Positions 17,135 to 38,310 of a stretch of DNA of 64,000 bases are shown piece after piece (within the stretch, counting starts at the first letter, position 1; each line of letters starts with the position of its first letter). Made by a program: the position numbers and the translations under genes. Where the stretch lies: contig NZ_CP126446.1 in assembly GCF_030166655.1 (NCBI RefSeq), positions 744,001 through 808,000 on the forward strand. Reading direction: 5' to 3'. Source of the DNA: Pontibacillus chungwhensis. Its GTDB lineage: Bacteria > Bacillota > Bacilli > Bacillales > BH030062. The notes beneath the pieces are model-generated. The model searched no databases. It was not told the DNA's origin and saw nothing but the letters and a program-made list of their open reading frames with translations.

Positions 17135-17443
17135 CTAAATTTCTTCTGTATAGGAAAAGGCAGGCATATGGATCATCGCATGATCGATATAGTGCATCAG
17201 ATCTTCATGAGATGTCATCACGGCTTGCTCATCAGGAGAATAATGATACGAATGGAGAAAGGACTCGATTTTCTTAGCGAGAAAATCATCTTTCGTGCGT
17301 ACCATTAAGATAAGTAAGTCGTCCCATTGCCCCCAAAGTGTAAAATACAAAGCTTTATCATAATCAGCTATATATACTGTCACTGAGGCATTGCCCCTTT
17401 CAGAAAGGGTTACTTGTAGTTTGACCAGAATAAAGCTCTTCAC
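17135..17443 (-). CDS. Small hypothetical protein
   Basis: 102 residues from a GTG start at 17443 with only a weak AAAGAG site. The N-terminus has alternating hydrophobic strands (SFILVKLQVTL, then SVTVYIADYDKALYFTLWG). The C-terminus is helical, His-rich and acidic. No signal peptide, membrane segment or known motif is seen, and I do not recognise the family. It is supported as a gene by its isolated position, its own downstream terminator and the absence of any competing frame. Confidence 0.55.
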   Translation of the reverse strand: MKSFILVKLQVTLSERGNASVTVYIADYDKALYFTLWGQWDDLLILMVRTKDDFLAKKIESFLHSYHYSPDEQAVMTSHEDLMHYIDHAMIHMPAFSYTEEI

Positions 17444-17479
17444 TCTTTGACGTTGTTGGCGATCTTGTCAAACAATGCC

Positions 17480-17510
17480 TGAATAGTTTACCGGAGTGAT
17501 TCGGATAATA
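17480..17510 (+). promoter_or_regulatory. Candidate sigma-G-type promoter for small basic protein gene
   Basis: TGAATA (17480-17485) and GATAATA (17504-17510) are 18 bp apart. The sigma-G consensus is GHATR with CATNHTA; only the first base of the -10 differs. It lies 31 bp before the ATG at 17542. Confidence 0.5.
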
Positions 17511-17541
17511 TCCTTATTAAGAAAATAAGGAGTGACTCCAT

Positions 17542-17730
17542 ATGACAAGTCGTAATGGCAGTAAGGGCAGTCAAAATCAAAGCTCACCAAAACGAACAGG
17601 GAAATTAAAAGGCGGTAAAATGAACGAAGAATTTGGCAAAGAAATCGCTTCTGGAGATAACAACAAAGGAACAGAATACCGTTCAAAAAAAGGGGCTAAG
17701 TCCCAATTAAAGAATCCAGGAAATCATTAA
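17542..17730 (+). CDS. Small hydrophilic basic protein, possibly a spore protein
   Basis: 62 residues, rich in Lys, Gly, Ser and Asn, without hydrophobic segments (starts MTSRNGSKGSQNQSS). AATAAGGAG provides the ribosome site. I do not recognise the family. The composition and size recall minor small acid-soluble spore proteins, and the upstream sigma-G-like promoter and downstream YhcN-type gene with a similar promoter support forespore expression. That role is inference. A strong terminator follows. Confidence 0.6.
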   Translation: MTSRNGSKGSQNQSSPKRTGKLKGGKMNEEFGKEIASGDNNKGTEYRSKKGAKSQLKNPGNH

Positions 17731-17733
17731 AAG

Positions 17734-17764
17734 AAAGCACGCCCAAAATTTGGGCGTGCTTATT
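17734..17764 (+). terminator. Rho-independent terminator after small basic protein gene
   Basis: AAGCACGCCCAAA and TTTGGGCGTGCTT pair perfectly and are followed by ATTTT. Confidence 0.88.
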
Positions 17765-17767
17765 TTC

Positions 17768-17797
17768 GTATAAAGGCGGATGAACGATTCCATACTA
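17768..17797 (+). promoter_or_regulatory. Candidate sigma-G promoter for YhcN/YlaJ-type gene
   Basis: GTATA (17768-17772) and CATACTA (17791-17797) are 18 bp apart and match the sigma-G consensus GHATR/CATNHTA fully. The expected transcript start near 17804 lies upstream of the ATG at 17828 but downstream of the longer in-frame ATG at 17780. It therefore also decides the start codon. Confidence 0.6.
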
Positions 17798-17827
17798 AGG
17801 GCACAAAAACAACTAGGAGGTACTAAC

Positions 17828-18430
17828 ATGAATATGAAGTTAGTAGGTGTATCCATTCTTTCTGCAGCGGTATTATTTGGATGTTCAGCAGAGGGTGACA
17901 AGGAATCCCGCATGGGCACAAAAGGTAATGACTATGAACAGAGCGCTCATAACGAGCAGAATTACAATGCTCAAAAAGATGGCTTCAACCAAGTGAATTA
18001 TGACAACGGTCCATACGATGGTCAAATGAATAATGGCCAAGATTACGGCGAAGAAAATGTGGGCAATGAAGACACATACAAAGACGACGATCGTCGTTAC
18101 AGTGTAGCGAATAAAGTAGCTGATAAAATCACAGCAGATGTCGATCAAGTGAAACGCGCTTACGTGCTAAAAACAGACCGTAATGCTTATGTGGCTGTTG
18201 TGAAAAAAGGCGAAACGACAAAAGAATTAAATGACGATTTAAAGAAGAAAATTGCTAAAGCGGCAAAATCTGCAGACAAAGACATTAACAATGTATTCGT
18301 TTCTGCAAACCCTGACTTCTTTGACATGACAGGCGACTATGTTCAAAACGTACAAAACGGCAAACCGGTTCGTGGATTCTTTGATGAGTTTGGTCAGATG
18401 ATTAAACGTATTTTCCCGGAAGCTAAATAG
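17828..18430 (+). CDS. YhcN/YlaJ family sporulation lipoprotein
   Basis: 200 residues. The lipoprotein signal MNMKLVGVSILSAAVLFGC has its lipobox cysteine at residue 19. An Asn/Gln/Tyr/Asp-rich linker follows (about 20-85), then the YhcN/YlaJ domain (about 88-170) with VADKITADVDQVKRAYVLKTDRNAYVAV. AGGAGG lies 8 bp before this ATG. Bacillus subtilis yhcN is forespore-specific under sigma-G, and a matching promoter is present here. Family members sit in the inner spore membrane and affect germination or outgrowth. Confidence 0.85.
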   Translation: MNMKLVGVSILSAAVLFGCSAEGDKESRMGTKGNDYEQSAHNEQNYNAQKDGFNQVNYDNGPYDGQMNNGQDYGEENVGNEDTYKDDDRRYSVANKVADKITADVDQVKRAYVLKTDRNAYVAVVKKGETTKELNDDLKKKIAKAAKSADKDINNVFVSANPDFFDMTGDYVQNVQNGKPVRGFFDEFGQMIKRIFPEAK

Positions 18431-18441
18431 AGTGAGATGAG

Positions 18442-18468
18442 ACCCCCGTTGAGTGCGGGGGTTTTTTT
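18442..18468 (+). terminator. Rho-independent terminator after YhcN-type gene
   Basis: ACCCCCG and CGGGGGT pair with a short loop and a run of seven T. Array A begins 25 bp downstream. Confidence 0.85.
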
Positions 18469-18492
18469 GTTTTTTGGTTGGAGTGGGGGAGA

Positions 18493-19420
18493 GGCTCGAG
18501 TTGGGTGAGGTGGCTCAAGTATCGGGGGAGTGGCTCGAGTTCGGGCGTGGCGGCTCAAGTAGCGGGGGAGCGGCTCGAGTTTGGGCGTGGCGGCTCAAGT
18601 AGCGGGGGAGCGGCTCGAGTTTGGGCGTGGCGGCTCAAGTAGCGGGGGAGAGGCTCAAGTTCGGGCGTGGCGGCTCAAGTATCGGATGAGTGGCTCAAGC
18701 AGAGGAGAAGCGACACAAGAAAAGGACTAATTGACTCAAGCGTCGAAAAGAACGACTCGAGTGAGTACGAATGAGCTCAAGCTGGCGGGATGTGGCTCAA
18801 GTAGGGGAAAACCGGCTCGAGACAAGAGGAAAGTGGCCCAAGTATGAGAGGCGGATGAGGAATGAGCTCAAGTTGCGAAAGAGAGGATCGAGTAGCGGCG
18901 TGGCGACTCAAGCAGAGGAGAAGCGACTCAAGCAGAGGAGAAGTGACACAAGAAAAGGACTAATTGACTCGAGCGTCGAAAAGAACGACTCGAGTGAGTA
19001 CGAATGGGCTCAAGCTGGCGGGTAGTGGCTCAAGTAGGAGAAAACCGGCTCGAGACAAGAGGAAAGTGGCTCAAGTATGCGAGGCGGATGAGAAATGGGC
19101 TCAAGTTGCGAAAGAGAGGCTCGAGTAGCGGCGTGGCGGCTCAAGTAGCGTGGGAGCGACTCAAGCAAAGGAGAAGTGACACAAGAAAAGGACTAATTGA
19201 CTCGAGCGTCGAAAAGAACGACTCGAGTGAGTACGAATGAGCTCAAGCTGGTAGGTAGTGGCTCAAGTAGGAGAAAACCGGCTCGAGACAAGAGGAAAGT
19301 GGCTCAAGTATGAGAGGCGGATGAGAATGGGCTCAAGTTGGGAAGGAGAGGCTCGAGAACCGGCTCAAGCTCCGCCGCAGCGACTCAAGTTCTCTCACAC
19401 CGGCTCAAGCCAACCCCTGC
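18493..19420. repeat. Tandem array A: 20-21 bp GRCTCRAG units with 233-bp higher-order period
   Basis: About 45 consecutive units each start with GGCTCAAG, GGCTCGAG, GACTCAAG or a close variant. Nearly all are 20 or 21 bp long. The first ~200 bp is a 40-bp dimer alternating GGCTCGAGTTTGGGCGTGGC and GGCTCAAGTAGCGGGGGAGC. From about 18712 an 11-unit block repeats. The landmark GACACAAGAAAAGGAC occurs at 18712, 18945 and 19178, exactly 233 bp apart each time, and one unit in each block is 30 bp. The period is not a multiple of three and frames shift between copies, so this is not coding. The array lies between a terminator and the NERD gene. Confidence 0.93.
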
Positions 19421-19495
19421 CTTCTAGGAAAGAGGACAAATTATTTCCATTTTCTAACTAGTCTTGCTATATTAAATTTGAAAGGAAGTGATTAA

Positions 19496-20470
19496 TTGGT
19501 AAACATGAAAAAGCGAACAGTACCTCCTGTCATTAGGCAAACAGAGGCTTTGCTCAGAAGGTTGCCTGAACAGCATCCGAAGCGAGAATTGATTGAGAAG
19601 GATGTTAATAGAAGGTGGGCTGGTTACCGGGGCGAACAGGCGTTAGATTATTTTTTAAGGTTTCTGCCTTTTTCCACTTATCGAATTTTTCATGATCTTC
19701 GTTTAAATTTATATGGGAATTCATTTCAAATTGATACCCTTGTACTTACTCCGAATGTTGGTTTCTTGATTGAAGTAAAGAATTTGGCTGGGGTGATAAC
19801 GGTTGATGAGGAATTAGGGCAATTTACAGTTGTAAAACAAGGGATTACAAAGAAATATCAAAACCCTTTGGCCCAGGTTAACCGGCAACTTATCCAATTA
19901 AAGCAATGGTTCCAGGCACATGAGGTCTACACTTATCCAATAGTGCCTCTTGTATCAATTAGTAATCCTAATACCGAACTACATTTTAAAGATTCACTTT
20001 CTGTTCCAATCACTCAATTAGATGTAACCATCGAGCGAATTAAGAAGCTCTATGCTTTTTATGAAAATAAAAAGTCTTTCTCCTTGGATCCTATAGAGCG
20101 ATCTTTACTTCGAAATCATCGCCCCTTTTATTCTGATATCCTCAAAATGTATTCGATTCCTTCCTCTCTTATTCAAACTGGTATTCAATGTCCTGTCTGT
20201 AAAGAATATGGTATGGCTCGTATCAAGTTGTCTTGGGAGTGCCCTGACTGTTCAACCCGCTCTAGGCAGGCTCATCGTCTTGCGTTAGCTGATTACTTTT
20301 TGTTATACGGATCAACGCTGACTAATAAAAGATGTCAGGAGTTTCTTGGTATACGATCACGGCATGCTGTTGCCAAACTACTAAGCCGTATGCCTCTTTC
20401 CTATACAGGCTCCACGAATGCTTTAACGTATGTGACTCCCTCAAACATCGAAGAACTCATACCACAATAA
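19496..20470 (+). CDS. NERD (nuclease-related) domain protein with C-terminal zinc-ribbon-like segment
   Basis: 324 residues. The NERD domain spans about 35-165: RWAGYRGEQALDYFLRFLP, FHDLRLNLYGNSFQIDTLVLTP and VGFLIEVKNLAG carry the acidic and Glu-x-Lys pattern of a restriction-like nuclease core. Near residue 230 CPVCKEYG...CPDCS gives two CxxC pairs likely to bind zinc, followed by a helical C-terminus. TTG start 6 bp after AAAGGAAGTG; the next ATG is too far from that site. NERD proteins are scattered by transfer and their targets are unknown. It lies directly after array A. Confidence 0.85.
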   Translation: MVNMKKRTVPPVIRQTEALLRRLPEQHPKRELIEKDVNRRWAGYRGEQALDYFLRFLPFSTYRIFHDLRLNLYGNSFQIDTLVLTPNVGFLIEVKNLAGVITVDEELGQFTVVKQGITKKYQNPLAQVNRQLIQLKQWFQAHEVYTYPIVPLVSISNPNTELHFKDSLSVPITQLDVTIERIKKLYAFYENKKSFSLDPIERSLLRNHRPFYSDILKMYSIPSSLIQTGIQCPVCKEYGMARIKLSWECPDCSTRSRQAHRLALADYFLLYGSTLTNKRCQEFLGIRSRHAVAKLLSRMPLSYTGSTNALTYVTPSNIEELIPQ

Positions 20471-20471
20471 A

Positions 20472-20498
20472 AAAACACCCAGGCAACCTGAGTGTTTT
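20472..20498. terminator. Imperfect bidirectional terminator
   Basis: AAAACACCCAGG and CCTGAGTGTTTT pair with one mismatch around CAA. It lies between convergent genes, with A-runs on the left and T-runs on the right. Confidence 0.65.
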
Positions 20499-21171
20499 AA
20501 TTAGGTGGGGGATACTCACTGATATGAATAGTGTGATCCCCATCTAAGATATAAGCGAAAAAGATGGACTTCGTCGAAGTGAAGTCTTGTTTTTTAAGCT
20601 GTTCAAGTAGCCAGGCTTCATCCTTTTTTACGAGCGAGAGATTGCGGTGCTGGACCTTCCCTTCTACGATGACGGACAAGGGAATGCCTTGGTACGGTAG
20701 CTCCATCCCCATATCTGCAGGGGTGAGAGGGGCACTCTCTCGTTTTGGGATGACACTGACATCGCCGTTTGGCTCTAGAAAGGCATATTCAATGTCTTTT
20801 ACACGTGGGTGACCCGACGTTCTGAGCACTGAGAGGAGTTCGACTAAAGAGAATCGTGACTTTTTTAAGTTTTCGGGTAAAATGACGCCGTGGCGAACCA
20901 AAACGGTGGGCTGGCCGATTATAAAATGCTTGATGCCATCCATAAGGCTCATTCGGGATAGGGCATAGTGAGTAAGCCCGATCCCGATAATGCCGATAAA
21001 AGATTGAACGTATGTATCAATTTGAATCGGTTGAAAGGCTACATAAGCTAAGAAAAACAAGGCTGCAAAATCGTGGGGGGTTAATTGGGCAAGAGCTGAT
21101 TTTCCCAATAAACGAACCACTAAAATATAGAGGACAAAAATCAATAACAACGGTGGAAGAAAGTTAAGCAT
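20497..21171 (-). CDS. DUF421 (YetF-type) membrane protein
   Basis: 224 residues from ATG 21171 (GGAAGGCGGG upstream); a longer in-frame ATG at 21195 has no site. Three N-terminal helices precede a cytosolic-type domain with KHFIIGQPTVLVRHGVILPENLKKSRFSLVELLSVLR, the recognisable DUF421 core, and IEYAFLEPNGDVSVIPK. Members of this family (YetF, YkjA, YrbG and relatives) include sporulation- and germination-linked proteins, but the molecular role is unsettled. Confidence 0.88.
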   Translation of the reverse strand: MLNFLPPLLLIFVLYILVVRLLGKSALAQLTPHDFAALFFLAYVAFQPIQIDTYVQSFIGIIGIGLTHYALSRMSLMDGIKHFIIGQPTVLVRHGVILPENLKKSRFSLVELLSVLRTSGHPRVKDIEYAFLEPNGDVSVIPKRESAPLTPADMGMELPYQGIPLSVIVEGKVQHRNLSLVKKDEAWLLEQLKKQDFTSTKSIFFAYILDGDHTIHISEYPPPN

Positions 21172-37741: not shown

Positions 37742-38310
37742 GGATCAAGAGGCGGTGGAGCGGGGCGACGGCCCAAGAAGAGGGAGGACGGCTCAAGATG
37801 CAGGGCAGCGGCTCAAGCTTAAGCTTAACGGCTGAAGAGAAACAGAGAATGGCTCAAAAAAATGAAATAACGGCTCAAGAGGTTAAAATAACGGCTCGAG
37901 TTAAGAGATAATGGCCTAAGTGGGGGGAGAGTGACTTAAGTAGAGGTTTAATGGCTTAAGTCAGGTAGAAAGTGACTCAGGTTGAGGACGACGGCTCAAG
38001 ATGCAGGGCAGTGGCTCAAGCTGATGCTTAACGGCTCAAGAGCAACAGGAAATGGCTCATAAAAATGAAATAACGGCTCAGTAGGTTAAAATAACGGCTC
38101 GTGTTAAGAGAAAATGGCCCAAGTGGGGGGAGAGTGACTTAAGTAGAGGTTTAATGGCTTAAGTGAGGTAGAAAGTGACGCAGGTTGAGGACGCCGGCTC
38201 AAGATGCAGAGCAGCGGCTCAAGCTTAAGCTTAACGGCTCAAGTTGTGAAATAACGGCTCGAGTTAGCGAGAAAGCAACTCAAGATCAGAGCGCCTCCTC
38301 AAACGCCCCC
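37742..38310. repeat. Tandem array B: 19-21 bp GGCTCAAG units with 203-bp higher-order period
   Basis: About 28 units share the start GGCTCAAG or variants (GGCTCGAG, GACTTAAG, GGCTTAAG). A ten-unit block repeats: the unit GGCTCAAGATGCAGGGCAG begins at 37790 and 37993, and its variant at 38196, exactly 203 bp apart both times. The unit start motif is the same as in array A, but the unit interiors and the block differ, so each array was amplified separately. As with A, the period is not a multiple of three. It lies between a terminator and the next plus-strand gene. Confidence 0.92.

Follow-up and report, generated by a model that had tools for sequence, protein, structure and literature searches.

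Between two genes of this Pontibacillus genome lies a run of short tandem repeats, referred to here as array A, in which the eight-base motif GRCTCRAG recurs every 20 or 21 bp while the 12–13 bases between its copies vary. The question raised by this locus is whether the constancy of the motif reflects a selected function, and if so at what level it acts, or whether it is a product of the way in which such repeats are amplified. The reading favoured here, with slightly better than even confidence, is that about 14 chromosomal arrays, array A among them, are docking sites for a putative sequence-specific DNA-binding protein.

Structure and surroundings of array A

The window, i.e. the whole 64,000-nucleotide stretch of DNA that was analysed, contains array A, its immediate neighbours and a second array of the same motif, as follows.

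17780 to 18430, forward strand: gene of the sporulation lipoprotein YhcN/YlaJ family (PF09580), the 5' neighbour, with its stop 62 bp before array A
18442 to 18476, forward strand: hairpin with a T-run, resembling an intrinsic terminator, between the yhcN-like gene and array A (hairpin search; coordinates by eye)
18485 to 18699, forward strand: sub-array in which a higher-order period of 40 bp, or two units, recurs in 5.3 copies with 91% matches (TRF)
18493 to 19409, forward strand: array A, 45 GRCTCRAG motifs, 37 exact and 8 with one mismatch, in 20/21-bp steps (motif scan)
18632 to 19364, forward strand: 233-bp higher-order repeat of 11 steps, 3.2 copies, 90% matches (TRF and copy identities)
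19496 to 20470, forward strand: gene of a NERD-domain protein (PF08378), the 3' neighbour
37790 to 38263, forward strand: second array, 11 exact copies of the same motif, 203-bp higher-order period, between levansucrase-family and aminotransferase genes

The preliminary description had counted about 45 units, almost all of 20 or 21 bp, and both statements were borne out: the 45 motifs define 44 steps which, with one mismatch allowed, are all of 20 or 21 bp except five (19, 30, 30, 29 and 12 bp). Across both strands of the window there were 55 exact motifs, compared with an expectation of 6.75 ± 2.63 from dinucleotide shuffles, none of 100 of which reached 55. Array A accounts for 37 of these, all on the forward strand, and the second array for 11; the 7 found elsewhere are at chance level, given the 6.75 expected for the whole window.

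Other parts of the preliminary description required revision. The 233-bp period was recovered by TRF and is real, but it had been called exact, and the best adjacent pair of copies is only 94.4% identical, with identities of 74–94% across adjacent pairs of three registers; the lowest value (74%) probably reflects a register shifted there by a 1-bp length change. The motif, previously regarded as a near-palindrome, is polar in practice: among 90 non-redundant units its position 6 was A in 86–91% of unit-starting motifs and in 77–91% of following motifs, and because of this dominance GGCTCAAG is its main, polar form. The proposal that all motifs face the same side of the DNA holds locally only, as the first eleven steps (one of 19 bp, then ten of 20 bp) drift off a helix of 10.4–10.5 bp and the steps are uncompensated.

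Array A has a GC content of 0.56, compared with 0.42 for the window, and a purine content of 0.66. A coding repeat was ruled out, in agreement with the earlier judgement that the array is non-coding, since each of the six reading frames contains 9–13 stops and none is open through the array. A known RNA family is likewise unsupported, as the Rfam search of positions 17400–20500 returned no family matching array A; its sole match, rimP at 17685–17789, lies outside the array and, at 31.7 bits, fell short of the gathering score of 47. The NERD-domain protein has orthologues at 80% identity in two congeners, G005 and G006, with an array upstream in both. Within the present genome (G000) there are five matches to this protein, itself included.

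Arrays across the genome and in related species

At the whole-genome level, G000 contains 154 motif pairs at 19–22 bp spacing (110 forward, 44 reverse), compared with 0 for the backward-read pattern. These pairs fall in 14 loci, which as fetched contain 110 of the 110 forward and 43 of the 44 reverse pairs (153 of 154), and which share one motif while their interiors are unrelated between loci. With genes called as longest ORFs, the neighbours at 12 of the 14 loci (mostly one scanned per locus) belonged to unrelated families: the array neighbours include the YhcN/YlaJ lipoprotein, the NERD protein, levansucrase, aminotransferase, GH65, DUF711, PelG, DJ-1/PfpI and PGI, along with GntP-type, BCCT and MFS transporters, a pyridine-nucleotide oxidoreductase and a class II tRNA-synthetase-type protein. 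Twelve of the 14 loci lie within 0.37–1.56 Mb, on one side of a dnaA-like start that was placed by ORF-size gene order only, with two further loci at 3.25 and 3.96 Mb and none between 1.56 and 3.25 Mb. This distribution is suggestive of terminus avoidance or an arm bias, as a post hoc pattern in a small sample.

Among 61 genomes, the GRCTCRAG pattern was present in four: G000, G005 (74 + 91), G006 (15 + 196) and, as a single match, G049. Three of the eight genomes of the genus carry arrays and five congeners (G001–G004 and G007) lack GRCTCRAG arrays; any function of the arrays is therefore not genus-wide. Motif arrays also occurred in Pontibacillus chungwhensis contigs among the matches listed, and the G000 motif is thus known in three other species; matches outside Pontibacillus in this contig scan, mostly single pairs among those listed, were left out. 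Over 3.9 kb, the P. chungwhensis contigs share 92% identity with a G005 locus, which makes Pontibacillus the probable genus of G000 and its congeners.

For at least 10 of the 14 G000 loci, the orthologous site in G005 and/or G006 is also occupied by an array, among the arrays listed for those genomes and with the 0.782 Mb locus counted on one matched flank only; the loci at 0.37, 0.47, 1.285 and 3.25 Mb have no partner among the listed arrays, which does not make them negative cases. In the opposite direction, 14 of the 16 fetched G005/G006 arrays have a G000 partner, the exceptions being L172 and L179. In P. chungwhensis, which supplied four arrays, two have such a partner (L107, L114) and two lack one (L016, L101); the arrays without a partner count against docking. 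Orientation relative to the flanks was kept in all 15 pairs with a flank alignment, of 16 pairs given. Where both flanks matched between G000 and G005 or G006, flank identity was 76.7–84.1% and interior similarity 0.29–0.61, compared with a background of 0.45 ± 0.12 in 1038 other ordered pairs, some orthologous pairs still included. Closer pairs, with flank identity of 87.5–93%, had interior similarities of 0.63–0.88. The site downstream of the pyridine-nucleotide oxidoreductase gene carries arrays in G000, G005 and G006, and there were no instances of GRCTCRAG in the 1.5 kb downstream of this gene in G001, G002, G004 and G007 (G003, in which the orthologue matched in pieces, was left out).

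The arrays of the relatives are thus not the random, unconserved expansions that the preliminary description had set against a selected binding function, with 14 of 16 sharing a G000 site. That GRCTCRAG is a selected recognition motif is well supported, because sites are shared and the motif, step and orientation are kept while interiors are replaced.

Differences between higher-order copies were pooled over 21 arrays to compare the motif with the interior. Fixed motif positions differed in 89 of 1526 comparisons (5.8%), the two R positions in 40 of 491 (8.1%) and interior positions in 641 of 4863 (13.2%), where a position was scored as motif if either copy was exact, which slightly favours low motif rates. 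Fisher's p for motif versus interior (8e-17) overstates the contrast, since the copies are not independent. The motif rate was below the interior rate in 17 of the 21 arrays, array A counted among them. However, array A on its own shows the same rate of 10% for both (13 of 129 motif and 32 of 308 interior differences), and in L154, L164, L165 and L180 the motif changes faster than the interior, all of which runs against docking. Best higher-order periods in the 21 arrays ranged from 124 to 265 bp, with 233 bp in array A and 215 bp in the corresponding arrays of G005 and G006.

In another family of the same order (f9; genomes G061 and G016), arrays have an equal step and a GAACTCRG-type motif. 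Among the 23 f9 arrays above threshold (15 from 10 G061 stretches and 8 from 12 G016 stretches, with G125 left out), interior purine content was 0.60 where the motif runs along the local genes (n = 7, three of them with a local balance of 0.04, close to zero) and 0.36 where it runs against them (n = 16; p = 5e-4). The interior composition therefore follows gene direction while the motif does not, so that the interior acts like free sequence under strand bias. The corresponding correlation in the Pontibacillus-genus arrays was weak (r = 0.35, n = 30).

One alternative is selfish or mechanistic amplification, in which a nuclease, a recombinase or replication slippage that recognises or needs the motif copies the 20–21-bp units. 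The motif would then be kept, without benefit to the cell, through the exclusive amplification of units that contain it. The differing higher-order periods among arrays and species do show repeated re-amplification, and the patchiness of the class (three of eight genus genomes with motif arrays), the arrays lacking a partner in other species, the other motifs of other lineages and the equal motif and interior differences in array A are all consistent with such a process. However, most sites and all judged orientations have been kept over about 20% flank divergence, which would not be required of an element that moves freely or decays, and there is no motif enrichment outside the arrays in the window. 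Amplification of this kind is a possible but doubtful explanation.

Step lengths and placement relative to genes

Step lengths were assessed over 340 non-redundant steps in the genus, and in these as in the other genus-wide counts orthologous arrays are included and are not independent. Most steps (287) were of 19–21 bp (8, 138 and 141, respectively, with none of 22 bp), and the longer ones comprised 9 at 29–33 bp, 20 at 40–43 bp, 4 at 50–53 bp and 8 at 60–64 bp. Off-phase steps were five at 12–18 bp, one at 23–28 bp, two at 34–39 bp, one at 44–49 bp and singles of 9, 65 and 81 bp; the steps of 9, 12, 15, 17, 18 and 23 bp, together with one of 24 bp seen by eye in a 44-bp gap, count against phasing. 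Among the gaps of 39–42 bp, 98 of 119 hide a motif with a single mismatch. Odd-helical-turn steps of the 29–33-bp type favour action at the DNA level, because the loss of a motif from a two-turn array cannot yield them.

Of ten steps between 23 and 38 bp, counted as lineages by eye after seeing the data, eight fall at 29–33 bp (binomial p = 0.002). The absence of such steps from G061 and G016 is evidence against phasing; G125 has a single step at each of 29 and 34 bp. The minor 29–33-bp steps are a hint of DNA-helix phasing. Phase keeping over long range through alternation of 20 and 21 bp is not supported, as the two steps are equally common and successive steps are uncompensated (r = 0.13 over 212 genus step pairs). 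Twist compensation by composition is not supported either: interiors of 21-bp units are AT-richer (GC 0.43 versus 0.54), and dinucleotide twist values would not predict AT-richer 21-bp units for phase keeping. One G005 array (L177; G005:C7, 75.8–76.1 kb) alternates 20- and 31/32-bp steps for an overall period of 51–52 bp, a possible bridge between the published 52-nt repeats and the 20–21-nt class (five versus two helical turns).

Across the genus, 29 of 31 callable 5' neighbours lie on the array strand, compared with 19 of 34 on the 3' side (34 arrays, with orthologues counted separately); the corresponding numbers for G000 alone are 14 of 15 and 8 of 15. There were no instances among 31 callable genus arrays of an opposite-strand 5' neighbour with a same-strand 3' neighbour, i.e. 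the divergent case, and three among the 25 f9 arrays with both neighbours called. The gene polarity of the genus arrays is not general, since the 5' neighbour was on the array strand in only 14 of 26 callable f9 cases (9 of 15 in G061, 3 of 4 in G125 and 2 of 7 in G016), and it is inseparable here from leading-strand direction. When 27 of the gaps that separate an array from the stop of its upstream gene were examined, 16 contained a terminator-like hairpin.

These placements bear on a possible RNA-level function, in which the arrays would be transcribed with the upstream gene or antisense and the motif would act as a sponge, a protein binder or through small RNAs. The agreement in strand with the 5' neighbour, in the genus and in G000 alone, points in this direction, as does transcription of the 52-nt repeats of B. 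coagulans, reported in passages of PMC8161180 and PMC8625621; the authors of the former, in the passages drawn on here, likewise suggest a role at the RNA level. However, the agreement is lacking in nearly half of the f9 cases and confounded with leading-strand direction, terminator-like hairpins separate gene and array in many of the gaps, the 29–33-bp steps have no obvious RNA reason and no Rfam family matches array A, so that a function in RNA appears unlikely. Least tenable is a neutral minisatellite, in which slippage and unequal crossing-over act alone and motif constancy is an accident of recent common ancestry: tandem and higher-order structure are ordinary products of unequal crossing-over and the copies in array A differ equally at motif and interior, but the motif is shared across loci with unrelated interiors, its pooled rate of change over the 21 arrays is less than half the interior rate and sites are largely conserved between species while interiors are replaced, making this explanation disfavoured and very improbable.

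A known repeat class and a putative binding protein

Array A belongs to the constant-length 20–21-nt bacterial tandem repeats of Subirana and Messeguer: it consists of 20–21-nt units, is one of several arrays with a shared short sequence and variable interiors, and is non-coding, between ORF-called genes. These repeats were described in 2020–2021, and in the passages of PMC8161180 (Subirana and Messeguer, 2021) drawn on here, Bacillus carries repeats of constant length, 20–21 nt or 52 nt, in which a short sequence is specific to the species; these repeats form several intergenic non-coding arrays per genome with a variable interior and a patchy taxonomy. In the same passages the length of two helical turns is noted, partial conservation between strains is reported for the 52-nt repeats, and nucleoid proteins or small RNAs are proposed with the function left open. 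The passages of its main text mention neither Pontibacillus nor GGCTCAAG, and literature searches found no paper on the repeats of this genus. New here are the orthologous array sites across species, the rates of motif against interior change and the 29–33-bp steps.

At the order level, RRCTCRR at triple 20–21-bp spacing matched 48 of 299 genomes and the permuted control RRTCCRR 74 of 299, with multi-locus variable-interior arrays among the latter, both counts including many single, exact or coding-like repeats, unsorted. The backward control RRCCTRR matched 24 of 299 genomes, with at most 9 matches each (columns counted by eye). A CTC core shared across the order was therefore dropped, as the control RRTCCRR matches more genomes (74 versus 48); the CTC core is not special, though cores are not all equal. 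Lineage-specific words include AATCCAAA in G168 and G193 and AATCCAGCCG in G255 and G161, and the repeat class is widespread, with lineages having motifs of their own, in agreement with Subirana and Messeguer.

Several further repeats were observed in these scans. Two of the congeners without GRCTCRAG arrays gave other matches, namely a 21-bp array built on a different motif (AGCTCGAACCCGAGNGAAAGC) at G002:C4 181174–181348 and two control-pattern matches in G004. Seven-bp AACTCAA microsatellites occur at several places in G137, G162 and G212, which are of one genus. Near-exact alternation of GGTCCAG and GGTCCGA with a 42-bp period in G251:C26 and G229:C4 resembles a coding repeat, unlike the non-coding class. 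In G291, 21-bp arrays occupy the first bases of contigs C5 and C20, so draft assemblies may lose such arrays at contig ends.

The arrays share features with several known systems. REP/BIME elements of E. coli are multicopy, lie 3' of genes and are protein-bound, and consist of palindromes of about 35 nt spread by a transposase; BIMEs bind gyrase and IHF. The genus arrays are likewise multicopy and 3' of genes, but their motif is 8 bp and polar, its copies follow one another head to tail roughly every two helical turns, and there is no palindromic unit. In CRISPR and TIGR guide-RNA arrays a constant part alternates with a variable part, and the units here also pair the two; however, they are 20–21 bp long with 12–13 variable bases, at 14 loci and with interiors copied in blocks. 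Guide arrays of either type were rejected, as interiors in array A recur in blocks rather than as unique spacers, which upholds the earlier CRISPR-unlike judgement, and the neighbours are unrelated; those scanned, at 12 of the 14 loci and mostly one per locus, belong to families of metabolism, transport and other unrelated functions and include no effector gene.

Iteron-type plasmid centromeres such as parC are helix-phased direct repeats that load a protein side by side. The arrays are also direct repeats phased to the helix, and side-by-side loading is what docking proposes, but they are dispersed chromosomal loci beside unrelated genes, and at the 12 of 14 loci with scanned neighbours there was no partition operon among these. 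Of the functions suggested at the outset (nucleoid organisation, partitioning and recombination), none is singled out by the evidence, and partitioning of the usual kind is unlikely given 14 dispersed loci beside unrelated genes. The Bacillus Chi sequence is AGCGG, which is denser in the arrays than in the flanks (6.4 versus 0.97 per kb), as explained by motif context. Clusters of Chi were rejected, as AGC precedes 28 of 249 motifs, below the 38.9 expected from the columns.

With regard to the favoured reading, a trans-acting factor that reads the motif is likely, because sites and orientation are conserved with replaced interiors, pooled motif change is slower and the interior follows strand bias; a DNA-binding protein, putative in both identity and function, is the best candidate. 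In the genus, the 8-bp polar motif is kept at about two-turn steps, at intergenic sites that are for the most part conserved, adjoin unrelated genes and lie on the 3' side of a gene. The bases between motifs evolve freely and are re-amplified as new higher-order units in each species. The putative protein would read GGCTCAAG in one orientation and bind neighbouring copies side by side, such that the array rather than a single site would matter. Unequal recombination between units would lengthen and homogenise the arrays, and selection would keep the motif and the site. By analogy with BIMEs in E. coli, the arrays would probably act at the ends of genes, on the architecture or topology of the chromosome nearby.

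A broader and more speculative proposal, for which the chances appear rather low, is that Bacillales in general carry helix-phased docking arrays, often located where genes end on the 3' side and read by a rapidly diverging putative DNA-binding family, with lineage-specific 7–8-bp motifs (GGCTCAAG, GAACTCRG, AATCCAAA, AATCCAGCCG and others), vertically inherited sites and a turnover of interiors resembling that of eukaryotic satellites. If true, repeat and binder would co-evolve in bacteria much as in centromere- or PRDM9-like systems. The largely conserved sites, the pooled contrast between motif and interior and a defined polar bait sequence make the question of function experimentally approachable, and a lineage-specific binder, if it exists, would represent a new class of bacterial chromosome-organising protein.
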